A stretch of DNA of 32,470 nucleotides from a candidate division WOR-3 bacterium (GTDB taxonomy: Bacteria > Hydrothermota > Tepidihabitantia > Tepidihabitantales > DTDR01): positions 14,875 through 47,344 of the forward strand of contig JBDRVE010000010.1 of NCBI GenBank assembly GCA_039801725.1, in the 5' to 3' direction. The notes under the pieces are model-generated. The model had not been told where the DNA came from. It was given only the letters and a program-made list of their open reading frames with translations, and ran no database searches. Positions 3,252-31,015 of the stretch are shown here, piece by piece. The position numbers and the translations under genes are program-made. Position 1 is the stretch's first letter, and every line of letters begins with the position of its first letter.

Positions 3252-6200
3252 ATGAAGAAGTTAATTATTCTTTTATTTCTTATTATCTTCTCTGCTTTTA
3301 GCGGAGAGATTACAAAAAAAATTGATTTTCCTTTAAGTGCTCTTTCTTTAACTCAAAAAGATGGTTATACGGTTGTTGATTTATTTGATGCTCCTTATTA
3401 TGAAGGTCCTTTGGGTTCGCCCCAGATTCCAGTAATTCCTATTTCTTGTGTTATTCCACCAAATGCTTATTTAAAGGATGTTGAGATATTAGAAATTAAC
3501 GAAGTAAAAATTCCTGGTGAATATTTATTATATCCTATCCAATATGGTCAAACCTGGTCAATTAATCAAGAGAAGAAAGAGTTTGTTTTACCAAAAGAAG
3601 AATATTATTCATTAAATACAATCTATCCCGAAAAAGTAATTAACTATCTAAATACTGGAAATAAAGGTGGTTTTAAAATTGGTAGTTTCTTATTATTTCC
3701 TGTTCGTTATCTACCGGCGAAGAGAGAATTGTATTTTATTACTTCTTTAAAAGTAAAGATTGTTTACGAAGAGAAAAATATTTCAATAAAAAGAATTTCA
3801 CCCTTTAAAAAACAACTACTTTTATCCAGTATTTATAAAATGGTATGTAACCCAGAAGATGCCGAAAGATTTTCGCCTTATGTTGAGAATAATTTAGGTA
3901 AAAAAGGAAGTTTATATTTACCACCCGGTTATTATGAATATGTGATTATTACACCAAATATGTTTGTTCCGGCTTGTTCTTCTTTATTATATTGGCGGAA
4001 TAAACAAGGTTATCCAAGCACAGTAATGACGATTGAAGAAATCCAAAGCACTTATCCTGGTAGAGATTTACCCGAAAAGATGAGGAATTTTATAAAAGAT
4101 GCTGATACTATTTGGCAGACACCTTTCTTTTTCATTGTTCGGCAAGACCATCCCGCACAACAATACCGAAGGTGTTATGTGTATTATACCGGTTCTTATC
4201 GGGACACATTACCTTGTGACCTATATTTCTCTGATTTAGATGGAGATTGGGATTTTAATAGAAATAATATCTTCGGAGAAGTTGCTGATTCAGTAGACGG
4301 CTATTCGGATGTTTATGTGGGAATGATTCCTGTTGACAGTTTAGAAGAAATTACCAGATATATTTCCAAGGTATTTAGATTTGAAAAGACACCGGATAAT
4401 TCAACTTTATATCCGATAAAAGTTTTATTGCCGGTTGGAGTCACCTTCTCCCAAGAATTTAATGATTCAATATATTATGCAATGCCTGCCCATTGGTTTG
4501 GTTGTCGGATGTATATGAGTGGCGGCAGTATAACACCCACTCCACAAAGATATTGTGATTCAATAAATTCTGGTTATGGTTATACCTCAATTATTGCCCA
4601 CGGAAGTGAAACATCTTATGACCTTGGTGGTTCCGTAACAATTCCGATGATGATGAATTTAAATAATACTAATAAATTAAATGTGTTAACCGCGGTTTGC
4701 TGTCATACAGGTGCTTTTGATTATTCTACTTCTGATTGTATTGCAGAATATATGACAACTCATTCACCAAATGGTTTTGCAGCAGTAATGATGAATTCAA
4801 GATACGGTTGGGTAAGAGTAGCAGAATATTATAACTACCACTTCTTCTATAAATTCTTACCAAGACAACCTATTGGTCGCAATCCCTTATGTTCTGCTTA
4901 TGTCTATGTTGGTGAAGCCCTTGCCCATTCTAAAGACCAGTTAAGACCATTATGGCCAATGACTGACTCTTCCCGATTTCGTTGGGAAGCATATGAAAGA
5001 AACCTTTTTGGCTGTCCTATGATTTTGTTATGGACAGATACTATTACCTATGCACAAGTTAATTTTCCGTCAACAATTCCCATTGGCTCAAATATTCCTG
5101 TATATATCACTGTTTCAACGAATGGCATACCGATAGAAAGTGCTTTGGTTTGTTTATGGAAAGGTAATGAAGTCTATGCCAAAGGAAAAACAAATAGCAG
5201 TGGCGAAATAACTTTATATGTTACTCCCCAAACACCAGGAAATATGTTATTAACTGTTAGTGGTAGGAATTTCTATCCTTATGAAGATTCAATATTAGTT
5301 ATTCCGACAGGTCGTTATGTTGCCTATCGTAGTCATTTAATTAATGATGACCCACCAAGAGGAAATGGTGATGGTATACCAAATCCTGGTGAAGAATTAG
5401 AGATTCCTGTATGGGTTAAAAACTTTGGTGAATTACAAGCGGACAATGTCTATGGATATTTCTTTAGTCGCGATACCAACGTTACTTATAATGATACTGT
5501 AAAATTCTTTGGTAATATACCTGGTGGCGACTCAGCATTTACCGGTGAAAATGGTTTTAACTTAACCCTTTCTAATAATCTAACAAACGGTTATTCAATA
5601 CTCTGTTCATTAAAATTAAAAGATGCTTATGATTCTATTTGGTATTCAAGATTTACTATTACCGTTGGCACACCAATTTTATCTTATGAAGATTTCTTTG
5701 TTAAAGACTCATTCTCCCAAAGACCAAATGGTAGAATTGACCCTGGCGAAACTGCTGATGTTTTAATAAAAATAAGAAATACTGGTTTAGGTCATGGTTA
5801 TAATGTCTATGCTATTTTAAAGAGTTCTGATACTTTATTTACAATTGTTGACTCTTTTGCTGATTTTGGAACTGTATTAAGGGGTGATACTGCAATCAAT
5901 TTTAATGACCATTTCAAAGTATTTGCCTCGCAATTAATTAGGCCGGAGACAGAAATTCTTTGTACATTGAAACTATATGCTGTTAATTATGAGAGGATAA
6001 CAACTTTTAGAATACCAATTGGTAGATTGACAATAACTGACCCGATACCTGACAATCGCCAGCCTGAGCCATTATATTATGCTTATGATGATGTTGATAC
6101 TTTTTATCAACAGACAGAGCCTTTTGAGTGGGTTGAGATAAGAAATGTTGGTACAAGATTGCCGATAACTTCTGATGACCAGACAATCCAGATTAACTTA

Positions 6201-6980
6201 CCATTCCCATTTAGATATTACGGAGTTCTTTATACTGGCCAATTATCCGTCTGTGGCAATGGTTGGATTACGCCTGTCTATACTACTTCAACAGTTTATA
6301 CTAATCAGCCGTTACCTGACCCGACATCATCAAATCCGAGTGCAATGATATGTCCAAATTGGGATGATTTATATCCACCGACGGGTAATGGAATTTGGTT
6401 TTATTACGATACATTAAATCACCGAATGATTTTGGAATGGGATAGTGTTCATTATTATAATCCAAGAGAGCAATGGGATAAGTTTCAGATTATAATATAT
6501 GATACCACAGTTCAAACTCCAACGGGTGATAATATAATTAAATTCCAGTATTTAACAGCGAATTATTATCAATCAAACACGGTTGGTATTGAAGACCAGA
6601 CAAATACGATTGGAATCTGTGCGGTTTATAATAATAATTATCATCGGGCATCGGCACAAATTCAAGCAGGAAGAGCAATAAAATTAATTACTGGTCAGCC
6701 ATTACCAAGAGTGAATATCTTTGAGTTTACTAAAAAAGAAGGTGAAATTAATAAATATGGAGAACTCCAAAGATTACCGACAATTCTTAAAGGAAGTTCA
6801 ATTATTCTGCCAATAAAAGCAAATAAGGTGGCTATCTATGATATTACCGGAAAGAAGATTAAAGATATTGAACGAAAGAAAGAAAAAGAGATAAAAATTG
6901 AAAATCTACCAACAGGAATTTACATAATAAAAAATCTTGAAAATAAGAAGGAGATTTACAAGATAATTATAACAAAATAA
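3252..6980 (+). CDS. Exported gingipain-like cysteine peptidase (family C25) with T9SS sorting domain
   Basis: A 1242-aa exported protein. A signal peptide (1-18) is followed by a ~200-residue propeptide-like region. The C25 catalytic domain spans about 225-620: DLYFSDLDGDWDFN (323-336) and DVYVGMIPVDS (353-363) are family landmarks, H450 (in IIAHGSETS) and C484 (in AVCCHTGAFD) align with the catalytic His and Cys of gingipains. Next come an Ig-like segment (about 600-680) and two CARDB-like domains that each begin near 'NPGEELE' or 'DPGETADV'. A beta-sandwich follows, with PFPFRYYG and VCGNGWI. The final ~75 residues carry the T9SS type A sorting signature (KVAIYDITGKKIKDI ... PTGIYIIKN). 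It is expected on the cell surface or secreted. SD is AAAAGGAGG. It follows the PepSY-like gene in the same direction. Confidence 0.88.
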   Translation: MKKLIILLFLIIFSAFSGEITKKIDFPLSALSLTQKDGYTVVDLFDAPYYEGPLGSPQIPVIPISCVIPPNAYLKDVEILEINEVKIPGEYLLYPIQYGQTWSINQEKKEFVLPKEEYYSLNTIYPEKVINYLNTGNKGGFKIGSFLLFPVRYLPAKRELYFITSLKVKIVYEEKNISIKRISPFKKQLLLSSIYKMVCNPEDAERFSPYVENNLGKKGSLYLPPGYYEYVIITPNMFVPACSSLLYWRNKQGYPSTVMTIEEIQSTYPGRDLPEKMRNFIKDADTIWQTPFFFIVRQDHPAQQYRRCYVYYTGSYRDTLPCDLYFSDLDGDWDFNRNNIFGEVADSVDGYSDVYVGMIPVDSLEEITRYISKVFRFEKTPDNSTLYPIKVLLPVGVTFSQEFNDSIYYAMPAHWFGCRMYMSGGSITPTPQRYCDSINSGYGYTSIIAHGSETSYDLGGSVTIPMMMNLNNTNKLNVLTAVCCHTGAFDYSTSDCIAEYMTTHSPNGFAAVMMNSRYGWVRVAEYYNYHFFYKFLPRQPIGRNPLCSAYVYVGEALAHSKDQLRPLWPMTDSSRFRWEAYERNLFGCPMILLWTDTITYAQVNFPSTIPIGSNIPVYITVSTNGIPIESALVCLWKGNEVYAKGKTNSSGEITLYVTPQTPGNMLLTVSGRNFYPYEDSILVIPTGRYVAYRSHLINDDPPRGNGDGIPNPGEELEIPVWVKNFGELQADNVYGYFFSRDTNVTYNDTVKFFGNIPGGDSAFTGENGFNLTLSNNLTNGYSILCSLKLKDAYDSIWYSRFTITVGTPILSYEDFFVKDSFSQRPNGRIDPGETADVLIKIRNTGLGHGYNVYAILKSSDTLFTIVDSFADFGTVLRGDTAINFNDHFKVFASQLIRPETEILCTLKLYAVNYERITTFRIPIGRLTITDPIPDNRQPEPLYYAYDDVDTFYQQTEPFEWVEIRNVGTRLPITSDDQTIQINLPFPFRYYGVLYTGQLSVCGNGWITPVYTTSTVYTNQPLPDPTSSNPSAMICPNWDDLYPPTGNGIWFYYDTLNHRMILEWDSVHYYNPREQWDKFQIIIYDTTVQTPTGDNIIKFQYLTANYYQSNTVGIEDQTNTIGICAVYNNNYHRASAQIQAGRAIKLITGQPLPRVNIFEFTKKEGEINKYGELQRLPTILKGSSIILPIKANKVAIYDITGKKIKDIERKKEKEIKIENLPTGIYIIKNLENKKEIYKIIITK

Positions 6981-8385: not shown

Positions 8386-11118
8386 ATGGGAAATTTATTA
8401 ATTTATTTAATAGTTTTTACTTTGACTATTCCTTTTAAATTTAATAGATCCTTTAAAAACTCTTATCTAATAAAAAGAAATTTCCCTAAAAGAAAAGAAT
8501 TTACCCATTCTTTAAATAAAAAATTCTTTTCTCCTTTTTCATTATTGGGAAGAAAAAATTTAAAAAAATATTATCAATCTCAGAAAAATTGTTTATTAGA
8601 GGAATTTTTATTAGATACTACCCGAATTTTTGGACCGGCTCCTTCTGATCAAGAATTTTCTTCAATTGCTTTTGATGGCACAAATTATTTTGTTGTTTGG
8701 CACGACTGGCGAAGAGACGGCGATATTTATGGCGCAAGAATTACTTTAGATGGAATTTTACTGGATACTTTTGGAATTCCTATCTGTACTACTTATGAAG
8801 CACAAATATGTCCTGCAGTTGCTTTTGATGGCACAAATTATTTAGTAGTCTGGGAAGATTGGCGTAACATAGAAGCCGATATCTACGGAGCAAGAGTTAG
8901 TCGAGAAGGAATTGTCCTTGACCCAGAAGGTTTTCCAATCTCCACAGCTCTTTTTGACCAAACTCTTCCAACGATATGCTTTGATGGCACAAATTATCTG
9001 GTGGCTTGGAATGACTGTCGAAATAATATTGAAGAACCAGATATTTATGCTGCCCGAGTTAACACTAATGGAATCGTTCTTGACCCAAACGGCATCCCTA
9101 TTTCTACCGCTCCTTTTTACCAGATGCTCTTTCGTGGCATTGCTTTTGATGGTCGAAATTATTTTTTAGTTTGGATGGATGACCGAGATGGCGATTGGTA
9201 TTTTGACATTTATGGAGCAAGGTTAACAACTAATGGTATTATTATTGATACAAATGGAATTCAAATTTCCTCAGCTGGAAATAACCAATATCTACCTCAA
9301 GTCAGTTTTGGTGGAAACAACTTTTTTGTCGTTTGGTATGACGATCGAGAAACAACTGAAGATTTCCGAATTTATGGGGCAAGAGTGAGTACTCAGGGAG
9401 TTGTTCTCGACCCAGATGGTATCCAGATTTCCCAATATCTAAGTACTATCCCAACTATAAAATTTGATGGTACAAATTATTTAGTAGTTTGGAGTGATTA
9501 CCGCTCAGGTTGGGAATTCGATATTTATGGCAGTCGAGTAACTCCTGGTGGTATTGTTTTAGATCCCGAAGGTATCCCAATTTCTACTTATGAATCTGAC
9601 CAAGGAATACCATCAATTTCTTTTGATGGTAATAAATATTTTATTACCTGGTCTGATTACCGATTCATTTACTCGGACATTTATGGTACAAGAATGACAA
9701 CCTCTGGAATAGTTCTCGATACAAACGGCATTCTTTTGGATTACGGTTATAGTAGCCCCGAACAACTTTTTCCTAAAGTTGCTTTTGATGGTCGAAATTA
9801 TTTTGTTGTGTGGGAAGATTATCGTAATGGCGAAGCCGATATCTATGGTGCCAGAGTTACTCCTGACGGCAGAATCCTTGACCCAGAGGGAATTGGAATT
9901 TGTAACACTGAAAATTATCAAATATCACCAGCCATTGCTTTTGATGGAACCAACTATCTGATAGTTTGGACAGATTACCGTAATGGTGAAGCTGATATTT
10001 ATGGAACAAGAATAACACCACAAGGAGTTGTGTTAGATACCAATGGCATCCCAATTTCTACTGCGGAAATTGACCAAATTTCACCTTCTTTAGCATTTGA
10101 TGGAAATAATTATTTGGTAGTTTGGCGAGATTTCCGTAGCGGTTGGTCTGATATTTACGGTGCTCGAGTTACTCCTCAAGGTATTATCCTTGATCCTGAT
10201 GGTATTCCAATTTCTACTGCTATTAATGAACAATATGACCCAAATGTAGCATTTGATGGAAATAACTATTTAGTAGTTTGGGATGATAATCGAAATGGTG
10301 AAAATTTTGATATTTATGGTGCGCGAGTAACACCTAATGGAATTGTTCTTGATCCGGAAGGAATTCCTATTTCGACAGCCGAATATGAACAATGGTATCC
10401 CAAAATTGCTTTTGATGGGAATAACTATTTTATTGTTTGGATGGATGATCGGGACGGTGATTGGTATTTTGATATCTATGGTACAAGGGTAAACCCTAAT
10501 GGCAATGTTCTTGAACCACAAGGAATCCCTATTTCTACTGCTGATTTTGATCAAATAGAACCATCATTAATCTATGATGGAATAAATTATTTTGTAATCT
10601 GGACCGATTGGCGTAACTTGAGTGGCGATATTTATGGCGCAAGAGTAACATCACAAGGTATTGTTCTTGATCCCCAAGGTATTGAACTTATCAATCAAGA
10701 AGAAACCCGTTCCTCTCCTCATTTAGTTAAAGGTTTGGATGCCCAGCTTTTACTCACTTTTTCTGGTTATGTTTCTTTATTTGGTGTTAAAAAAGTATTT
10801 GGCGCTTTCTATCCTGGACCAAGTCCAGAAGTTAAAGAAAGAAAAAATAACAAAAAATTTGATTTAAAAATTTATTCTAATTTTATAAGAAATTATATTT
10901 TAATAAAATTCTTTTTAGAAAAATCAGAAAGAGAAGACAATATTAGACTCGAACTTTTGGATATCTCCGGAAAAATGATAAAATCGGTAATTAGTGAATG
11001 TGCATCCGATAGTCAACAGATAAAATTTTCCCTTCCAAATATTAATTCAGGAATATATTTCTTAAAATTAGCAACCAATAAAAGATGTTTTATTACTAAA
11101 ATTACTATTGTTAGATAA
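8386..11118 (+). CDS. Exported 13-repeat propeller-like protein with T9SS sorting domain
   Basis: A 910-aa protein with an N-terminal hydrophobic signal (residues ~1-17). Residues ~20-90 are basic and low in complexity. Thirteen tandem repeats of 51-55 aa run from residue 95 to ~780, each of the form AFDGxNYLVVWxDxRxGxxDIYGARVTPxGIVLDPxGIPISTA. The last ~75 residues match a T9SS sorting domain (LELLDISGKMIKS ... NSGIYFLKLATNKRCFITKI). The repeats look like four-stranded propeller blades, though 13 is unusual for one propeller. SD is AAAAGGAG, and the gene starts 22 nt after the aminotransferase. Its likely role is a surface adhesive or scaffold protein; no catalytic motif is seen. Related repeats are known from secreted proteins of several phyla, without a firm function. 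Confidence 0.8.
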   Translation: MGNLLIYLIVFTLTIPFKFNRSFKNSYLIKRNFPKRKEFTHSLNKKFFSPFSLLGRKNLKKYYQSQKNCLLEEFLLDTTRIFGPAPSDQEFSSIAFDGTNYFVVWHDWRRDGDIYGARITLDGILLDTFGIPICTTYEAQICPAVAFDGTNYLVVWEDWRNIEADIYGARVSREGIVLDPEGFPISTALFDQTLPTICFDGTNYLVAWNDCRNNIEEPDIYAARVNTNGIVLDPNGIPISTAPFYQMLFRGIAFDGRNYFLVWMDDRDGDWYFDIYGARLTTNGIIIDTNGIQISSAGNNQYLPQVSFGGNNFFVVWYDDRETTEDFRIYGARVSTQGVVLDPDGIQISQYLSTIPTIKFDGTNYLVVWSDYRSGWEFDIYGSRVTPGGIVLDPEGIPISTYESDQGIPSISFDGNKYFITWSDYRFIYSDIYGTRMTTSGIVLDTNGILLDYGYSSPEQLFPKVAFDGRNYFVVWEDYRNGEADIYGARVTPDGRILDPEGIGICNTENYQISPAIAFDGTNYLIVWTDYRNGEADIYGTRITPQGVVLDTNGIPISTAEIDQISPSLAFDGNNYLVVWRDFRSGWSDIYGARVTPQGIILDPDGIPISTAINEQYDPNVAFDGNNYLVVWDDNRNGENFDIYGARVTPNGIVLDPEGIPISTAEYEQWYPKIAFDGNNYFIVWMDDRDGDWYFDIYGTRVNPNGNVLEPQGIPISTADFDQIEPSLIYDGINYFVIWTDWRNLSGDIYGARVTSQGIVLDPQGIELINQEETRSSPHLVKGLDAQLLLTFSGYVSLFGVKKVFGAFYPGPSPEVKERKNNKKFDLKIYSNFIRNYILIKFFLEKSEREDNIRLELLDISGKMIKSVISECASDSQQIKFSLPNINSGIYFLKLATNKRCFITKITIVR
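8668..10725 (+). repeat. Thirteen in-frame tandem repeats of about 156-165 bp
   Basis: These units encode the propeller-like blades. The most constant DNA segments are TTTGATGG(C/A)A(C/A)(A)AATTA and GATATTTATGG. Units 4 (from about 9148) and 12 (from about 10408) share the rare insertion WMDDRDGDWYFDIYG, which suggests past duplication of an eight-unit block. Confidence 0.85.
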
Positions 11119-20544: not shown

Positions 20545-22955
20545 TTATTTTAAAAAAATTGATTTTCTTACTACTTTCCCTTCTGGCAGGTTTATTTCAA
20601 TGAAATATATCCCCTTTGCTAAATCTTTTAGGGAAAGAGAATATTCCCCTTCTTTTTTATTAACTTTTCATCTCTTTTAACTAAACTACCTTTTATATCA
20701 TAAATCTCAATTATAATTTTACCAGTAATATCTAAATAATATTCTAACATATCTTTGTAATAAGTTTTATTTAAACATAAAACAATTTTTTCGCTTCCTT
20801 CTAAATCTTTGCCTAAATATTCTTCTTCGTTTCTAAAGTATTTACCTTTTGTATAAAAGATATAAGTCTTCTTTTCTAAGATAGGAGAATTGCTACTACT
20901 TTCGGCAAGAAAAGAGATAAAAATATTTTCGTTCTTTTTTAGAGGAATTTTAACATTGTCTTCTTCATTTATTATATCAGTAATTTCACCATATAAGTTA
21001 TGATAAGCAGAAACCAATTTTAAGGTTTCAATTTGAGTTATGGAAATAAAAGAAGATATTAAACCTAAATAATCAATTTCTGCCCCCTTTAGAAAAGAGA
21101 AATTTATTACTAACTCACCGTTATAATTTTTTAACTCTTCTCTTAAATCCCAATAGGTATATGCCCAATTTTTTCTTCCATAAATTGTTTCTGAGGAAGA
21201 AAAAGGCTGGTTTCTACCGCCAACAAGTTGTGTTTTACTTCTCAAAAGAATCACAATTATTCCGCCATTTGGCAAAGAAACTTCACCAAAATTGGCAATT
21301 AAATAACCGCTATCTTTTAATGAAAGATAATTATTATCAAAAGGTGTTAATATCTCATTTCGCCAATCTTTATTAGTATGGTCAATGAAAGAAATTGGTG
21401 AGATTGTATTTTGGTAACCAAAAATAAAATTATTAACAATTCCAATATTTAGGCTTTCGTTATGAGAAATTGACAAAAGAGAAAATTTATCAAAATAAGA
21501 AGAATCTTCATAATCTTCTTTAATAAAAATTTTATAAAAACCATCTTCTTCTTTTAAATTCTCTTTTAGAATATGATAATCAGTAGTTTCAGAAAAGGAA
21601 ATTGGCAGAATATTATTATCTTCATAATATGTGGAAAAGGAATAGGGATAAATAATTGGGCAAGGGAGTTCACCCGGAGGCGGTTGAGTACCGCCACCTC
21701 CGCCGCCACTTTGATCAGAAATATAAAAAATAGAACTTCTCATATCCTGTATTGGTGGTTCATTTTTTATACTCTCAAATCTTGATTTAGCAATAATTTG
21801 AGCTTCATATCTGCCAGGATTACCATAGAAAGTAATTTCATAATAACCAGGTTCCTTATATTCATTATTAATTAATGTAATTGTATTAAGGTTTATGACT
21901 TTTAAAGTTACATAAGCAAAATCGGTAAGTTTAAATTCAATTTTGACACTATAAGGATTAGAAGCACGAGAAGCCTTAAAATCTTTAACTTCTACTCCTA
22001 AACGATAAATTTGGATTCCACAATCACTCTCCCATCTTCTTTCACCAATAATCATTCTGTCAAAATAAACCAACTTATTATTTTTTATTCCAATTGGAAT
22101 AGTAATATGATTTATACCTTTGAATTGATTCCTGCCTGTTCCATAACTACCAAAAGTATAAATACTTTCACTTAAATCCTCTTTCCATCTTAAAAGTCTT
22201 GAATTAGAATTATCAGCAATCCATAAGGTTCCATCAAATTCAATGTCACTAATTTCAAAATCAAAAGTTCTTTCATTAACAAGAGTTGTCGTGTTATTAT
22301 CCTTACGATGTTTTAATCTAACAATTCTTCGGCTATTACTATCTACGACATAAAGATAATATTCCTGATTATTTAAACTTCTTCCGCGGGCAATAATTCT
22401 TGGACTTTGTAGGCCCCAAAATTGTGCCTGAAAATTTCCATCATAATCAAATTTGATAATCCGATTATTAATTGAATCGCATACCCAAAAACTTCTTTCC
22501 GGACAAAGAGAATCGTTTGCCATGGTAGCAATGCCTAATGGAATAAAATTATAGGAAAAATTTCTTATATAAATAAGTGAATCTCTTTGCCAATCATATT
22601 TATATTTTAATATTCCCCATTCAGAAGAATTAGTTATAAATACATAACCGCCAGTATCCACAGCAATTCCCCGGAGACCTACAAAATAATTAGATATTAA
22701 TGGTGGGTAATAAGCAGAAATATCTAATCTTGTTAAATCAGGAGAACTTATTTTTAGTATTCTATGCCAATAAACATCGTTTATGAAAACTAAATATTTA
22801 TTTCTTATTAATCCAAATGAAATCGTAGGTTGGCCCATCAAATTACGTGCCAAATACGCTAGAGAAGTATCTCTTGTTAATTTTTTAAAAAAATTTAAAG
22901 TAATTGCCTGTAAGAAAGATATATAAAAAAGAAATAAAAAAAATAATATTTTCAT
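20545..22955 (-). CDS. Exported NHL-type propeller protein; sorting domain reached by -1 frameshift
   Basis: The uninterrupted frame runs 22955-20628 (775 aa). A signal peptide (1-17) precedes NHL-like blades (about 90-300; CDSINNRIIKFDYDG, TLWIADNSNSRLLRW). An Ig-like segment with EPGYYEITFYGNPGRY follows (about 345-395), then a glycine/proline linker near 415, a beta-rich domain and the start of a T9SS sorting domain (IEIYDIKGSLVKRDEK). This frame stops at 20628. The -1 frame continues with GEYSLSLKDLAKGIYFIEI and ends in KSIFLK with TAA at 20547-20545, giving a normal sorting domain of about 802 aa in total. The switch point is an in-register A AAA AAG. SD is AAGGAGGG; the ATG overlaps the previous stop (ATGA). 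Either a frameshift mutation, a sequencing indel or programmed frameshifting. Confidence 0.8.
20652..20658 (-). promoter_or_regulatory. Slippery heptamer A AAA AAG, candidate -1 frameshift site
   Basis: On the minus strand the zero-frame codons ATA AAA AAG contain A AAA AAG in the X-XXY-YYZ register known from E. coli dnaX. A small GGGAA/TTCCC stem (8-nt loop) lies about 3-4 nt downstream. No strong upstream SD-like stimulator is visible. A -1 slip joins the frame to the rest of the sorting domain. Confidence 0.5.
22419..22523. repeat. 105-bp near-identical block, copy in the long propeller gene
   Basis: It matches 24813-24917 at 103 of 105 positions by eye (mismatches at 22422 and 22510). 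It encodes the MAND-LCPERSFWVCDSINN segment and onward to DGNFQAQF. Flanking parts of the two genes are far less similar. Confidence 0.85.
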
Positions 22956-23905
22956 TTAGCCCTCCTTTTTGATTCATAGTAAGAAGGATATTTTTCCATA
23001 AGTTCCTTTTCCCATTTAATCTTTTCTCTATTTTTTAAAGTATATTTTGGTCCACCAAATATAAAATTAAACTCCAATTGGCGAGTTAAAAAATGGTTAG
23101 GAAACTTTTTTTTCATTTCTTTAACAATATTTAACCATTCTTTTTCTAATTCCCTTCTTGCTCTTTCCTCCCTCATCTTAATAATTTTCCTTATCTTCTC
23201 TCTATTCTCTCTTCTTTCTTTCTCACTAAAACCTTCATAAACTTTGTTTAGAGTATAGTGCAGCAATTTATAATAAAAAAAGTAAAGATAAGGTAAAAGG
23301 TTACTATATTTATACTTTAAAATTAAATTCTTAATTTTGTTAAGTAGTACTATCTTACTTCCTAAAAGTATGGGATCTCTAAAGGAAGCTAAAAAATTAA
23401 TTATTTCTGCCTCTTTTTCTTCTCTTTGGGAATTTCTAAAGAATAAAATAATAGAATCTAATTTTTCAAAAACTCCTTCTGGAGAACAATACACTGAAAT
23501 TATAAAAAATTTGATCGGAAGAATTTCCTTTTGGGTAGGAAATAAAAAAGGTTTTCCATCTTTAGTTAAAAAATCTTTTAGAAAAACACAATTAAAATTT
23601 CCATATATAGAATCATTGGGTTGAATGATAAAAGTATCAAGAGAAGGAGGTTCAGCATCTATATAAATACCAAACAGAGAGAGGTCAAAAAAGAATGTAT
23701 CTTTATTATGGACAAAATAAATTCTATCTAAATTAATACCAAAGGCCCAACCCTCTTTAAAAATTAATTTTTTGGGATTATTTTCTTTATTTTTAAATTT
23801 TGGTTGAATAAAAATTGGTTCCCAGATAAAAAGCGTTTCTTTTGGTGCCTCAAAATAAGGAAATTCAAAAGAATTAAATATTAAAAAAGTTAAAATATTT
23901 ATCAT
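22952..23905 (-). CDS. Secreted protein of unknown family (cassette gene 2, copy 2)
   Basis: A 317-aa protein. The ATG at 23905 is chosen because AGGAGGA lies 4-5 nt upstream; an earlier in-frame start would fall in the preceding gene. A weak hydrophobic N-terminus (MINILTFLIFNSFEF) suggests export. Residues ~20-150 are beta-rich and open with KETLFIWEPIFI, like an Ig-type domain. Residues ~160-317 are helical and highly charged, with a run rich in E, K and R around 235-270, then KKFPNHFLTRQLEFNFIFGG and a terminal YPSYYE. The same landmarks (KETLFIGEPI, KKFPNHILTEYHEFN, YPYNYE) occur in the gene at 25391-26281, so the two are paralogues. I do not recognise the family. It lies 8 nt after the metzincin gene and overlaps the propeller gene by ATGA. 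Confidence 0.75.
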   Translation of the reverse strand: MINILTFLIFNSFEFPYFEAPKETLFIWEPIFIQPKFKNKENNPKKLIFKEGWAFGINLDRIYFVHNKDTFFFDLSLFGIYIDAEPPSLDTFIIQPNDSIYGNFNCVFLKDFLTKDGKPFLFPTQKEILPIKFFIISVYCSPEGVFEKLDSIILFFRNSQREEKEAEIINFLASFRDPILLGSKIVLLNKIKNLILKYKYSNLLPYLYFFYYKLLHYTLNKVYEGFSEKERRENREKIRKIIKMREERARRELEKEWLNIVKEMKKKFPNHFLTRQLEFNFIFGGPKYTLKNREKIKWEKELMEKYPSYYESKRRAK

Positions 23906-23913
23906 ATCTCCTC

Positions 23914-24612
23914 CTAAGGTTTTTGCCTTCTCATACGTTCTGCACAAGTATCACAAAATTTATCAGGTATCCTTTGGCCCGGATACCGGTGAGGATACAT
24001 TATGCATTTAAGAGCGGTTGCATGCTCATTAAGATTAAAAGCATGTCCAATCTCATGGGCAATTGTTGAGTTAATTACCCCATATGCTTCACCCCCATAC
24101 GTTTGTTTAATATATTTAACAGCAATAACACATCTTGCTTCACCACGTACATCAGGTCTACAATAACAATATCCTAACAAAATACTTCTTGTATCCCAAT
24201 GGCTTATAAGAACATATTTCACACCACATACATAAAGACACCAACTATCACGCGCTTTTTGAACCCATCCTTTATAATAATCATAATTCCACCACAGCCG
24301 GCTGCTTAAATCATCTTTCAACACATCAATAGTTTCCTTGTCCGGGAAAATATCGGTTACATATTGATTGTCTAAAACTACCTTAATATCCCATATCGTA
24401 TCTCCTCTACTCCTATCTCCCGGTCTTATTCTCTTAATTTCATTTTGAATATAATTAAAATAACCAAAATCCATCCGTATAGGATATAAGGTATCTTCAG
24501 TAGCATCTGCTTCTATTGCAAGATAACCTGTTGGAATATCAGGATCGGATACGCCGCATTTGAACATCATCATAATTATAAAAAATAATATCAATACTAA
24601 ATTTTTCTTCAT
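23914..24612 (-). CDS. Archaemetzincin-like zinc metallopeptidase lipoprotein
   Basis: A 232-aa protein with a hydrophobic N-terminus ending MMMFKCG (C19), a likely lipoprotein signal. The zinc site is AHEIGHAFNLNEH (H186, E187, H190, H197), followed by CIM (C203-M205) and CDTC (C220/C223). This order, a metzincin helix, a C-x-M turn and a closing CxxC zinc-finger pair, is that of archaemetzincins, although here the third His is one residue further out than in the classic HExxHxxGxxH. Seven more cysteines lie between residues 120 and 165. The expected role is a cell-envelope or surface peptidase with unknown substrate. A promoter ends 5 nt before the ATG and no SD exists, so the transcript is leaderless. 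It leads the cassette with the next two genes. Confidence 0.82.
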   Translation of the reverse strand: MKKNLVLILFFIIMMMFKCGVSDPDIPTGYLAIEADATEDTLYPIRMDFGYFNYIQNEIKRIRPGDRSRGDTIWDIKVVLDNQYVTDIFPDKETIDVLKDDLSSRLWWNYDYYKGWVQKARDSWCLYVCGVKYVLISHWDTRSILLGYCYCRPDVRGEARCVIAVKYIKQTYGGEAYGVINSTIAHEIGHAFNLNEHATALKCIMYPHRYPGQRIPDKFCDTCAERMRRQKP

Positions 24613-24719
24613 TAAAAATTATAACTATGAAAAAAAAAAGTCAATAAGAAAAATTAATTTTTTAACATCAATTTCGTCCTTATTTTTCAAGGATTTTTTG
24701 AAATTATAAAAATTTATTT
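24613..24719. repeat. ~107-bp direct repeat, promoter copy 2
   Basis: Nearly identical to 27041-27146 (about 103 of 107 positions by eye; one length change in an A-run, and changes near the -10 box). It holds the promoter of the metzincin gene at 24612. Both copies end abruptly at AATTTATTT. Confidence 0.85.
24618..24644 (-). promoter_or_regulatory. Predicted promoter of metzincin cassette copy 2
   Basis: TTGACT (24644-24639) and TATAAT (24623-24618) are 15 nt apart, shorter than the optimum, with a poly-T spacer. The -10 box ends 5 nt before the ATG at 24612. Confidence 0.55.
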
Positions 24720-24738
24720 GTTAAAAATAAGGAAGGGT

Positions 24739-24768
24739 ATAAGAAAATTCCCTCTTTTCCAGAGAGAA
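24739..24768 (-). terminator. Candidate terminator of cassette copy 1
   Basis: On the minus strand TTCTCTCT (24768-24761) pairs with AGAGGGAA (24755-24748), 7 of 8 pairs with a 5-nt loop, followed by TTTTCTTAT. It lies just after the truncated propeller gene and before the next cassette's promoter. Confidence 0.45.
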
Positions 24769-24782
24769 ATATCATTGCTTAC

Positions 24783-25394
24783 CTATATCGCAATTTTTTG
24801 TAAATATCTGATAAACTGTGCCTGAAAATTTCCATCATAATCAAATTTGATAATCCGATTATTAATTGAATCGCATACCCAAAAACTTCTTTCCGGACAA
24901 AGATAATCGTTTGCCATTACTGTAATACCACAGGCACAAATTGAATAATCATACTCTCGCACATAATCCAATTTGTCTCTATCCCAATTATATTGAAGCA
25001 TAGTAATTTTTGTTTTAAAATCACCATAAGGAAGAGTGGGACTTCCCGAAGTAACAAAAAGAATCCCACCAGTATCAACAGATAAAGAATGAATTCTGAA
25101 ATAATAACACCAATTAAGATTACCTGGGTAATAAAAAGCATCTATCTTCCAATTTTTAGGGTTATTAAAATCTGTGCCAAATATTATAGGCATTCTTTTC
25201 CAATTTGGATCACCAATAATAGTCACAACTTTATTTAAATCTTTTCGACAGACACTTGCTGAAGCCTTTGGCATACCCATAAAGAATGCTCGCCAATATT
25301 TAAGAGTAGTATCTCTTGTTGCTTTATAGGTTAAAGAAATTGTTTGAGAAAAAATAAAATTAACCAACAATAGAAATAAAGAGAAAAATCTCAT
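24783..25394 (-). CDS. Truncated propeller protein (cassette gene 3, copy 1)
   Basis: A 203-aa protein with a signal peptide (1-16, FSQ). It aligns with the first ~190 residues of the 775-aa propeller gene: ATRDTTLKYW versus LTRDTSLAYL, LSVDTGGILFVT versus IAVDTGGYVFIT, then CPERSFWVCDSINNRIIKFDYDG identical. Shortly after this identical stretch it ends with IRYLQKIAI and a stop, so all later blades, the linker and the sorting domain are missing. It is coupled by ATGA to the gene before it. It is probably a remnant left by recombination at the shared 105-bp block, though a short exported product is still possible. Confidence 0.65.
   Translation of the reverse strand: MRFFSLFLLLVNFIFSQTISLTYKATRDTTLKYWRAFFMGMPKASASVCRKDLNKVVTIIGDPNWKRMPIIFGTDFNNPKNWKIDAFYYPGNLNWCYYFRIHSLSVDTGGILFVTSGSPTLPYGDFKTKITMLQYNWDRDKLDYVREYDYSICACGITVMANDYLCPERSFWVCDSINNRIIKFDYDGNFQAQFIRYLQKIAI
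24813..24917. repeat. 105-bp near-identical block, copy in the truncated propeller gene
   Basis: Partner of 22419-22523 (differences at 24816 and 24904). The truncated gene departs from its paralogue right at the end of this block, which points to a recombination junction or conversion tract. Confidence 0.85.
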
Positions 25395-26281
25395 TTTCCT
25401 TCTAATTTCTTAATCTTCGCTTCAAACTGTTTAGTAATCATTTTTACTTCGTAATTGTAAGGATATTTTTTCTTCAATTTCTTATATAACTTGTACCCTT
25501 TTTTGGGGTCGCACATAAAATAATTTCCACAAATGTTAAATTCGTGATATTCTGTGAGAATATGATTTGGAAATTTTTTTCTCATCTTATTTAACATTTT
25601 CTCCCGTTCATAAACCCATCTCCACGGATTTTTTTTATCTTCCACATCAGTCTTTATAACTGATACCCAATTGATATAAGGAAGAAGGATAGTATCTTTA
25701 TATTTTTCAATAAGTTTTTCAAGTTTTCTCCAATCGCCTCCAGACTCATAATATTTTATAAAATCAAAAAATTCTTTCTTTTTCTCATCTGTTGGCTCTT
25801 TAAAATAGAGAATAATACTATCCATATATCTAATAATACTGTCTCTGAATCCTTGCTTTTCTTTGATTACCAAAGGAGTCCAAATTTTAATAGGTGTATA
25901 AATAGTAAATTTTCCATATTTAAATGGTAAATATTCAAAATATGAAAATCCGGTTTTTTCCAGTAAACGAAAATCGCGATAAAAGAACGGTGGATTGATT
26001 ATATAAAAAGAATCGCCCGGAAAAATAGTTATAGTTTCCCTCTTAACCCATCCTTCGATTACCAATCGGGGTATTTTATACTTCTTTCCTTCACAAATTA
26101 TATAAAAATCAAAATAATCTGAGGGCCAATCCAAAATTTGCTGAAGAAAAGGTGTGTCATTTTTATAGCAGAAAATTGTAATAATGGGTTCACCAATAAA
26201 AAGGGTCTCCTTATACGCTACCCATTTGGCTTTTGAAAAGATTATATTAATCAAAAATAAAAACAAAATAATTTTTTTCAT
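25391..26281 (-). CDS. Secreted protein of unknown family (cassette gene 2, copy 1)
   Basis: A 296-aa protein with a signal peptide (MKKIILFLFLINIIFSKA, about 1-18). KWVAYKETLFIGEPIITIF (19-37) opens a beta-rich domain like those of Ig-type exported proteins. From about residue 140 it is helical, with SIILYFKEPTDEKKKEFFDF, LEKLIEKYKDTILLPYI and KKFPNHILTEYHEFNICGN. The last part, KLYKKLKKKYPYNYEVKMI, resembles a TPR-like helix pair. It is a diverged paralogue of the gene at 22952-23905, with shared landmarks at both ends. No enzymatic motif is seen. It lies 17 nt after the metzincin gene and overlaps the truncated propeller gene by ATGA. Confidence 0.72.
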   Translation of the reverse strand: MKKIILFLFLINIIFSKAKWVAYKETLFIGEPIITIFCYKNDTPFLQQILDWPSDYFDFYIICEGKKYKIPRLVIEGWVKRETITIFPGDSFYIINPPFFYRDFRLLEKTGFSYFEYLPFKYGKFTIYTPIKIWTPLVIKEKQGFRDSIIRYMDSIILYFKEPTDEKKKEFFDFIKYYESGGDWRKLEKLIEKYKDTILLPYINWVSVIKTDVEDKKNPWRWVYEREKMLNKMRKKFPNHILTEYHEFNICGNYFMCDPKKGYKLYKKLKKKYPYNYEVKMITKQFEAKIKKLEGK

Positions 26282-26298
26282 CTCTGTGCTTTTTAATT

Positions 26299-27039
26299 TT
26301 AAGGGTGATTACTTCCATATCTTTTAGGTAAATAATAATCACGAAACCTTTGTTTACAATTATCACAAAAGAATTGATATGTGTGGGGTTGTAAGTATGG
26401 ATACATTATACATAACCACCAATCACAATGAGTAGTATCTTGTGGGTCAAATACATGACCTATCTCATGAGCAAGAGCCACTGCTTTTAAGTAGTCTACC
26501 TTCATGTTGTTTTGATAGAGAGCATAAATATAACCACCTGCTACTATTGAAAGAGGTGCCCAATATTCTTCTTTAACACAGAAAGTTATTCCTGCAGCAT
26601 AACGACCAGTAGCAACATTATAAAGAGAATCCGCTATTAAAACATACAGACACCAACTATCACCTTTCAAAAGCCAAGTGTCTCGATAGGTGTAATTTTG
26701 TATTAATAATCTTATTGTCTTCCTATTAATAGTATCATAATTTTCTTCAGTAGTATAGCGAAGTACAGACGGAATCACATTTTCTAAATTATTATTTTCC
26801 CCATACTCCTTTATTTCTTATTTACCATAAATATTATTACTTTCTTTAATCGCATCAGAAATTATTCCCATAGAAACCCACTTTTCTATAGTATACTTTC
26901 TATAATCCACTTCTATACCAATTGTGGTATCCGGAATGTCTGGGATACTTCTACTTCCACCGCCTCCGCCACCACCGCCACAATCTACCTTATAAAATAG
27001 CATAAATAATACACTTATTATTAGTAATATATATTTCAC
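26299..27039 (-). pseudogene. Archaemetzincin-like lipoprotein gene interrupted by an in-frame TAA
   Basis: A GTG start at 27039 gives a 73-residue N-terminal part with a hydrophobic signal, YKVDC and a run of eight glycines. It stops at TAA (26820-26818). The same frame then continues without further stops to 26299, with GDSWCLYV, the zinc site AHEIGHVFDPQDTTHC, CIM and FCDNC. HC-x4-CIM is the exact archaemetzincin arrangement. The paralogue at 23914-24612 has no stop here and shares SWCLYV, HEIGH and CIMYP, so the TAA most likely inactivates an ancestral ~246-aa protein. TAA is not a selenocysteine codon. Restart at the GTG at 26778 would give a 159-aa peptidase without signal. A promoter ends 6 nt before the GTG. 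Confidence 0.75.
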
Positions 27040-27040
27040 A

Positions 27041-27146
27041 TAAAAATTATAATCATGAAAAAAAAAGTCAATAAGAAAAATTAATTTTTAAACATCAATT
27101 TCGTCCTTATTTTTCAAGGATTTTTTGAAATTATAAAAATTTATTT
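27041..27146. repeat. ~106-bp direct repeat, promoter copy 1
   Basis: Partner of 24613-24719. It places the same promoter in front of the first metzincin gene. The start codon here is GTG where the other copy has ATG a few bases nearer. Confidence 0.85.
27046..27071 (-). promoter_or_regulatory. Predicted promoter of metzincin cassette copy 1
   Basis: TTGACT (27071-27066) and TATAAT (27051-27046) have only a 14-nt spacer, one shorter than in the other copy because of the shorter A-run. The -10 box ends 6 nt before the GTG start. Confidence 0.5.
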
Positions 27147-27197
27147 AACAAAATACAATAGAAGGTATGTGAAATTATGGCAGGAAGAAATTATATT

Positions 27198-29303: not shown

Positions 29304-29877
29304 TTTAATTAACTATAAATATTGGGCTAGAAAGGTTATCTTTATACCTGTACAAGTATTTGATTTATAAAAACTTATAGATATATACCATTTTTGCTAT
29401 TTTGTAAAGAGAGTTATATTTAGATAGCAATATTCCTACCAATTATTTAAGTCCTACGGAATTATAAGAAATAAATTTGATATTAAAGTCATTAATAAAG
29501 CGAATATCGCCACCATTAATAAGGCGAATATTATTGGCATTAATAAAAATATTATTGTTCACATTAATAAAATTATTATTATTCACATAAAGGAGACCTA
29601 CCCCCTATTACCCCCTCCTCAGAAATTTTTCTCCTCTATTAACCACCCTCGAATAACAAAAAGCTCTACGGGTAAAATATCGAGTTTTATTCTAATTCAC
29701 AAATTTCCTATTAAATTAATAGTCATTATAATAATTATAGCAAAAATAAAAGATTTGTAAAGATAAAATTTGTTCCCAATTGTAAATTTATTAATAAAAG
29801 AAATCATTACCATAATAAGAATGAAGTCTTTTTATTCTTAATTTGTAACCATTATTTAACACATTTACTTCTTTTTG
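29304..29877. other. Non-coding stretch between divergent genes
   Basis: No gene is recognised. It contains the four 24-bp repeats at 29491-29586, a C-rich segment at 29597-29618 (G-rich on the minus strand) and an inverted CTCGA/TCGAG pair near 29648-29690. A frame without stops crosses the repeats (29428-29758, plus strand) but has no ATG, GTG or TTG start and a composition of mostly I, K and N. Confidence 0.6.
29491..29586. repeat. Four tandem 24-bp repeats
   Basis: The units start at 29491, 29515, 29539 and 29563, each with ATTAATAA(A/G). Units 1-2 continue with (A/G)GCGAATAT, and units 3-4 end in TTCAC. The register is exactly 24 nt with no spacers, so this is a minisatellite-like array and not a CRISPR. 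Confidence 0.85.
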
Positions 29878-29905: not shown

Positions 29906-29936
29906 ATTAATGATGTCTTCAAAATCGGAGGTTATT

Positions 29937-30953
29937 ATGAAAAAATACCTTCCTTTATTATTTACTTTAATTTTTATTTCTTCCCTCTATTCAGCAGAAA
30001 GGATTGTTGTCGCTGAAGAAGCCTACCAAGAAGGTTGAGGTTCCTGCGCGACAGCCAGCAGTGTGCTGGACCAAATATCTTCAATATATCCAACAAGAAT
30101 TGCCGCAATTGAAATGCATGTCTCTTCGGCTTATCCACTTTATTGTGCAGAGGCAAGAAGTAAAATGTATATGTATCCACCTCCTTACTATTATAATGGT
30201 CAATGGTATTATGTAACTCCTTATATGTGGTACGATGGTAAAAAAGGTGGCACAAGTTATTATAATTGGCAATATCTTTTGGAACAAAGAATGGGAGTTA
30301 CTTCTGATTTAAATTTTGAATTTTCCGGTTGGTATAATCCAAATACAAGAAATGGTCATATTGAATTGACAATTACTAACGAATCTGGTAATCCAATTAC
30401 TGGTCGGCTTCAATTTGTAATTACTGAAGATAGTATATATTATTCAGCACCAAACGGTGATGTTTGGCATAATCATGTCGCAAGAGATTATTTACCCGAC
30501 CATAATGGTGAAATAATTACTGTGCCAGCAAATAGTTCTATTTCCCGAAGTAGAGATTTTACTATTTCTACTAATTGGAATCCTGATAAATGTAAAATAA
30601 TTGCCTTTTTACAAGACAATAACCTTCAACCCGATTCAACAAAAGAGGTTTATCAAGGCGGAATGATAAAAATTAGGGAATTGACCGCTATTAGCGAAGT
30701 TACTAATATTTCTCCAAAACTTACTTTTATTTTCAATACTGGTAAACCAAAAATTAAATTAACCTGTGGAAATGAAGGTGAATTTGTGCTTCAAATATTT
30801 TCTACCGACGGAAAGGTTCTTCAGACAATCAAAGATTACTTTGTTGGCAAAGAAAAAGAACTTTCTCTTAATCTAAAAACCAAAGGAATCTATTTCTACA
30901 AACTAAACTTCTCCGGTAAGGAATACCAAGGAAAACTTGTTAATCTACAGTAA
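29937..30953 (+). CDS. Exported thioredoxin-fold (Omp28-like) protein, probable selenoprotein with T9SS sorting domain
   Basis: Read with UGA at 30036-30038 as selenocysteine, the frame encodes 338 aa. A signal peptide (MKKYLPLLFTLIFISSLYSA, 1-20) is followed by RIVVAEEAYQEG-U34-GSC37-ATA. This is a UxxC version of the CxxC redox site of thioredoxin-like exported proteins ('VxxEE...CGxCxxA'). IAAIEMHVSS and TPYMWYDGKKGG continue the fold, the latter at the usual cis-proline position. Residues ~110-250 are beta-rich. The C-terminus (LQIFSTDGKVLQTI ... TKGIYFYKL) is a T9SS sorting domain. GGAGG gives a clear start. Codons before and after the UGA are in the same frame, and both halves are needed for a whole exported protein. 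A Cys-to-stop mutation is the alternative, but the hairpin at the UGA argues for selenocysteine. Confidence 0.78.
30036..30072 (+). promoter_or_regulatory. Candidate bacterial SECIS element at the in-frame UGA
   Basis: Directly after UGA (30036-30038), CCAGCA (30055-30060) and TGCTGG (30064-30069) form a perfect 6-bp stem capped by GTG. GGT (30039-30041) can pair with ACC (30070-30072) to close the structure. The loop begins with G, 23 nt after the UGA, within the range I recall for bacterial SECIS elements (roughly 16-37 nt, G in the first loop positions). The segment is much richer in G+C than its surroundings. Confidence 0.7.
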
Positions 30954-30981: not shown

Positions 30982-31015
30982 GGGCGGAGTTCTAATTCTC
31001 CGCCCTTTTATTTTT
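30982..31015 (+). terminator. Strong rho-independent terminator
   Basis: GGGCGGAG (30982-30989) and CTCCGCCC (30998-31005) form a perfect 8-bp G:C-rich stem with an 8-nt loop, followed by TTTTATTTTT. It ends the selenoprotein transcript just before the hutU promoter. Confidence 0.93.

Follow-up and report, generated by a model that had tools for sequence, protein, structure and literature searches.

The gene studied here lies at positions 29937-30953, on the forward strand of the window, by which we mean the whole stretch of 32,470 nucleotides that was analysed. With TGA read as selenocysteine (Sec), the frame runs from the ATG at 29937 to the TAA ending at 30953 and encodes 338 residues. Exactly one in-frame TGA is present, at codon 34 (30036-30038), where it forms the motif U-G-S-C. 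A preliminary description of this DNA had reported that codon 34 is the only in-frame UGA and that it is located between a signal peptide and a thioredoxin/Omp28-like body, and re-reading of the sequence gave the same result. The gene and its parts are as follows.

29927-29931, forward strand: Shine-Dalgarno sequence GGAGG, 5 nt before the ATG (from the sequence)
29937-30953, forward strand: Omp28-related selenoprotein gene, 338 residues including Sec34 (from the translation and from Pfam and NCBIfam matches)
29937-29996, forward strand: putative signal peptide region, residues 1-20, composed of MKK, a hydrophobic stretch and SLYSA (from the sequence)
29997-30302, forward strand: thioredoxin-like domain, residues 21-122; U34xxC37 stands where a helix begins, and Pro95 is invariant
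30036-30038, forward strand: UGA codon 34, read as selenocysteine (from the translation and the homologue column)
30045-30047, forward strand: codon of the partner Cys37 of UGSC, invariant in the 19-sequence alignment
30055-30069, forward strand: upper stem-loop of the bSECIS, CCAGC-AGUGU-GCUGG, with the stem at 30055-30059 and 30065-30069 and the loop at 30060-30064
30303-30686, forward strand: Omp28 beta-sandwich domain with a conserved D-x-x-HNHVxR motif
30768-30941, forward strand: C-terminal sorting domain of type A for the type IX secretion system (T9SS; TIGR04183), residues 278-335
30982-31005, forward strand: hairpin resembling an intrinsic terminator, after the TAA

The selenoprotein gene is flanked by a gene for elongation factor G (opposite strand, read from its translation) and by a urocanate hydratase gene. 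The gap that precedes the selenoprotein gene contains two arrays of 24-nt AT-rich tandem repeats, which overlap each other (window 29480-29588; 68-86% matches).

Homologues were searched for in 147 genomes of the phylum (WOR-3/Caldifarciminota), and matches were obtained in 95 of them. In the 96 homologous frames that could be mapped, codon 34 was TGA in 84 cases, TGT in eight and TGC in four; no other codon was found at this position. The UGA is kept at the same codon in homologues whose identity ranges between 83% and about 30%, and its conservation therefore goes far beyond chance. It aligns with the Cys of homologues and has conserved flanks, as expected for a selenoprotein gene. A maximum likelihood tree was calculated from 92 of the 96 mapped frames and midpoint-rooted. 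The half containing the window gene comprised 63 rows, all with Sec (SH-aLRT 98). The other half was a mixture of Sec and Cys forms with at least five switches between the two, all outside the window-gene clade, a count that carries no direction under midpoint rooting. The branch of the window gene is often multicopy and, in the genomes searched, was present only within the phylum; a search among 390 wider relatives at E <= 1e-30 gave no match outside it. A scan of contigs for relatives yielded one close relative, from a WOR-3 metagenome-assembled genome (L020), with 83% identity.

Downstream of the UGA, a conserved and covarying bSECIS hairpin was found. It can be written as CCAGC-AGUGU-GCUGG or, equivalently, as CCAGCA-GUG-UGCUGG, and its loop lies 21-22 nt after the UGA. 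The fit to the bacterial SECIS model that had been proposed for it in the preliminary description stands, but the spacing of 23 nt given there does not. The bSECIS model has an upper stem of 4-16 bp, a loop of 3-9 nt with a G in the first two loop positions, a distance of 16-37 nt from the UGA and a free energy of <= -7.5 kcal/mol (PMC13188914). The hairpin of the window gene has a 5-bp stem, the loop AGUGU, a spacing of 21 nt and a free energy of -8.4 kcal/mol for the bases from +12 on, the value for the 15-nt hairpin alone being -7.1 kcal/mol. In the isolated fold of 42 nt, a competing structure was favoured over the SECIS hairpin, which became dominant (P ~0.97) only when the bases after the UGA that a ribosome would cover were left out. 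Judged by pair counts on the ungapped alignment of 60 homologues, pairing was found in 96.3% of the cells, compared to 3-40% in slid controls; 26 cells had changed on both sides, and none of 500 shuffles reached the cell or covariation scores. The innermost pair of the stem alternates between U-A and C-G, and in one homologue (L025) a C-G pair in the middle of the stem is replaced by A-U. In some members (L037, L042 and L049) the stem is shifted by about one codon and reads CCGCC-AGUNN-GGCGG. Stems of at least 5 bp that close on a loop with an early G were present in 95% of the UGA forms, whereas only 33% of the 12 Cys forms had such a hairpin. Compared to synonymous recodings, the UGA forms folded more stably (mean z -1.5; z -2.9 for the window gene), and the Cys forms were no more stable than their recodings (mean z -0.4). 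An Rfam search of the window and the locus returned no SECIS or other family. The homologues L100-L106 of the phylum are longer Omp28 proteins (frame of about 600 residues) with UPYC and a different SECIS-like hairpin, GGCAAG-AGGU-CUUGCC; on the tree, Cys homologues are near them.

The genes selA, selB, selC and selD were looked for in the genome and all four were found. Profile searches gave SelB with 377 bits, SelA with 488 bits and SelD with 317 bits, each above its cut-off, and a tRNA-Sec with the anticodon tca was detected by ARAGORN at the same place as an Rfam match of 70.8 bits. The selD gene (L016:1469-2513, G000 contig 8) itself contains an in-frame UGA (CPG-U-ASK), and the hairpin GACGC-AGUUA-GCGUC starts 17 nt after it, with the same size and the same loop start as the hairpin of the window gene. 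Among the matches listed, SelA (E <= 1e-10) was present in 52 of the 55 genomes of the phylum with a UGA-bearing match and in none of the 17 whose matches lacked the UGA (Fisher p 8e-14, for genomes that are related and not independent). The three UGA-bearing genomes without SelA are only 53, 79 and 82% complete. Within the same genus, one species with a 98% complete genome (G100) has neither SelA nor the short selenoprotein. In one genome (G076 contig 1, 1643837-1645878) a SelA fragment of 97 aligned positions and an Omp28 selenoprotein gene are about 0.7 kb apart, and in three others (G094, G067 and G085) SelA lies within about 10 kb of such a gene.

Readings of the TGA other than Sec have to be weighed against these data. 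A premature stop in a pseudogene, or a Cys or Trp codon misread during sequencing, would leave a lone early stop of the kind seen here, and the genome is a draft of 61 contigs. The UGA occurs, however, at the same codon in 84 of the 96 homologues, representing dozens of independent assemblies, and the dN/dS ratios relative to the 83%-identical homologue L020 are about 0.13 for codons 1-33 and about 0.12 for codons 35-250. Since these ratios are alike, the protein is under purifying selection both upstream and downstream of the UGA. A pseudogene or sequencing error is already refuted by the homologues, and we regard its probability as negligible. If a changed code or a suppressor tRNA led to decoding of the UGA as Trp or Cys, both ordinary amino acids, this would agree with the Cys found at this site in homologues, which any Cys-like decoding fits. 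Yet TGA terminates five other genes of the window, where read-through would add at most 21 residues, in line with the earlier remark that UGA is a normal stop elsewhere in the window. The genome also encodes RF2 (above cut-off in a profile search), and the RF2 gene (L115, G000 contig 16) carries near its start the CTT-TGA site of autoregulatory programmed frameshifting. Because of these five stops and of RF2 with its frameshift site, wholesale reassignment of UGA is out. In addition, the Sec pathway is complete and the SECIS covaries, and both track the UGA. A changed genetic code was rejected on the homologue, RF2 and stop-codon evidence, and decoding as an ordinary amino acid is very improbable. 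Taken together, the sequence comparisons confirm the observation of a selenoprotein gene at 29937-30953, and Sec is almost certainly the residue inserted at UGA34.

Structure prediction with AlphaFold2 from 19 sequences (mean pLDDT 87.3) placed U34 between a strand (residues 24-30) and a helix (residues 37-50). In the 19-sequence alignment, residues 34 and 37 do not vary, and neither does Pro95, a candidate for the cis-Pro of thioredoxins, the place of which it occupies. The predicted arrangement, a beta-alpha-beta unit with UxxC at the helix start and a candidate cis-Pro, is that of thioredoxin-type oxidoreductases. Profile searches gave weak matches to thioredoxins over the N-terminal part and a match to Porphyromonas gingivalis Omp28 (2r2c). 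The best compact fold match was 2axo (TM 0.64 by target length), which we take to be a DUF1223 protein. The DUF1223 model (PF06764) was matched weakly by seven of the 19 members but not by the window protein itself. A model of the first domain only was of poor quality (pLDDT 66) and gave weak matches to thioredoxins; for the fold assignment we therefore rely chiefly on the full-length model and on conservation. The top hits of Foldseek, transglutaminases and RbmA, were discarded as beta-sandwich matches with poor superposition (rmsd >10, TM ~0.25).

The protein can be attributed to the Omp28 family by its match to PF11551 (65.2 bits, E 8.7e-18, gathering cut-off 34.9), whereas its score with NF033782, the model of the Omp28 family outer membrane lipoprotein, is 64.6 bits at a cut-off of 150. 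It resembles the P. gingivalis protein by profile but differs from the lipoprotein family in having Sec in place of Cys and a T9SS tail, and no lipobox Cys was visible on reading of the sequence. GOS_C, a hypothetical selenoprotein with Trx fold and UxxC, has been on record since 2008, when 74 Sec and 312 Cys sequences were given for it (PMC2398784), and a 2026 review links it to NF045500, the NCBIfam model named 'Omp28-related selenoprotein' (PMC13188914). The thioredoxin-like fold, UxxC, the relation to Omp28 and the UGA with its bSECIS are common features, and every one of the 19 aligned members matches NF045500. The window protein, however, reaches 57 bits where the curated cut-off is 200, and the longer Omp28 proteins of the phylum that carry the UGA reach only 78 bits when scanned as pieces of 271-273 residues. 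The clade of the window protein carries a T9SS tail, in which it may differ from GOS_C. A UGSC-containing selenoprotein family (PMC2398784) was also considered and dropped: the likeness is limited to the letters U-G-S-C, no family model was matched, and the 'GS' varies among homologues of the window protein, where USSC, UASC, UPTC and ULPC were observed. DsbA-, DsbG- and Trx-like selenoproteins (PMC9312934) share the thioredoxin-fold UxxC but are not Omp28 proteins, and no T9SS tail is noted for them in the reviews searched. The literature search gave no paper joining a selenoprotein with Omp28, and for selenoproteins and type IX secretion the only co-mention was in an unrelated study of rabbit diet. 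The preliminary description knew of no thioredoxin-like selenoprotein exported by type IX secretion, which agrees with the literature searched, with the amendment that Omp28-related selenoproteins are already on record. What looks new is a phylum-wide branch of this known kind that has a T9SS tail and is strictly Sec.

The sorting domain at the C terminus, also proposed earlier, was detected with TIGR04183 at 25.9 and 29.4 bits, just above the cut-off of 23; the Pfam sorting-domain model gave 21.1 bits, below its cut-off of 27. A TIGR04183 match was obtained for 19 of the 19 aligned members, and the tail has profile similarity to the C-terminal domain of PorU. SprA, the translocon protein of the T9SS, is encoded in the genome (290.9 bits, cut-off 200). 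Sorting-domain matches above cut-off occur at about 50 places in the genome, one of which is the selenoprotein gene. SprA and these tails indicate that the genome encodes a T9SS, and export of the selenoprotein to the surface would be in keeping with this.

We propose that, when a ribosome reaches UGA34, the downstream bSECIS hairpin would recruit SelB with Sec-tRNA-Sec and Sec would be inserted. If insertion fails, RF2 would release a stub of 33 residues, hardly more than the signal peptide. The full-length product would be exported by means of its signal peptide and directed by its sorting domain to the type IX system, for delivery to the cell surface or to the outside. There, the Sec34-Cys37 pair may exchange with disulfides or other oxidised partners. 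The most likely role of the thioredoxin-fold domain is that of a thiol-disulfide oxidoreductase, in which Sec34 would make the attack and Cys37 would pair with it in a selenenyl sulfide. The Sec genes, the homologues, the bSECIS and the sorting tails support the core of the preliminary description, an exported thioredoxin-fold selenoprotein with a T9SS tail. It is highly probable, as far as can be judged from sequence, that the gene encodes a functional exported selenoprotein with SECIS-driven Sec34, delivered to the surface by the T9SS and likely to be a thiol-disulfide oxidoreductase.

Both the chemistry and the destination of the protein may be seen differently. Sec in thioredoxin folds also serves peroxidases, and the second domain has an invariant HNH-x-x-R motif, so that reduction of peroxide or methionine sulfoxide, or reduction or binding of a metal(loid), could take the place of thiol-disulfide exchange. 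UxxC at the helix start together with the invariant Pro95 is nevertheless the pattern of a thioredoxin-type oxidoreductase, and we consider the non-thiol chemistries rather unlikely. As to destination, thioredoxin-fold exported enzymes are usually periplasmic, and the modest score of the tail would suit a protein that remains in the periplasm for disulfide formation or repair and carries a vestigial T9SS tail. Against this, the tail is retained in all aligned members and resembles the C-terminal domain of PorU by profile, and the genome encodes SprA and some 50 such tails; a periplasmic location seems unlikely. Surface delivery of a thiol-disulfide oxidoreductase remains the reading that we prefer.

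Such genes come out split at the UGA in standard annotation, and a phylum-wide family of secreted selenoproteins is thus easily missed. If the proteins are T9SS cargo, selenoenzymes would operate on the cell surface or outside the cell; the question then is why Cys never takes the place of a residue of such reactivity and cost in the clade of the window gene. The close match between the family and SelA provides a concrete trait by which selenium dependence may be tested in a phylum known mostly from metagenomes. Formate dehydrogenase is the commonest client of Sec. A molybdopterin oxidoreductase was looked for in this genome and none was found, and formate dehydrogenase is therefore absent from it. 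Since, in addition, the clade contains only Sec, is often multicopy and tracks SelA, it is conceivable that Caldifarciminota (WOR-3) keep the Sec pathway largely to arm secreted, T9SS-delivered redox enzymes of the surface, a suggestion that we make tentatively and with less than even confidence.

Three other regions of the window encode exported or repeat-containing proteins. At 20628-27153, on the reverse strand, a cassette for exported proteins is duplicated, comprising an archaemetzincin-like Zn protease, an orphan protein and an NHL-type beta-propeller; the duplication is marked by direct repeats of 182 and 138 nt (80-83% identity), and the second copy is shortened, with a propeller of 203 vs 775 residues. 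A beta-propeller-repeat protein of 910 residues with a T9SS tail and internal repeats of about 156-159 nt is encoded at 8386-11118. Finally, an exported protein of 1242 residues with a T9SS tail, encoded at 3252-6980, showed weak similarity to the peptidase region of the PorU sortase (32 bits, cut-off 420).
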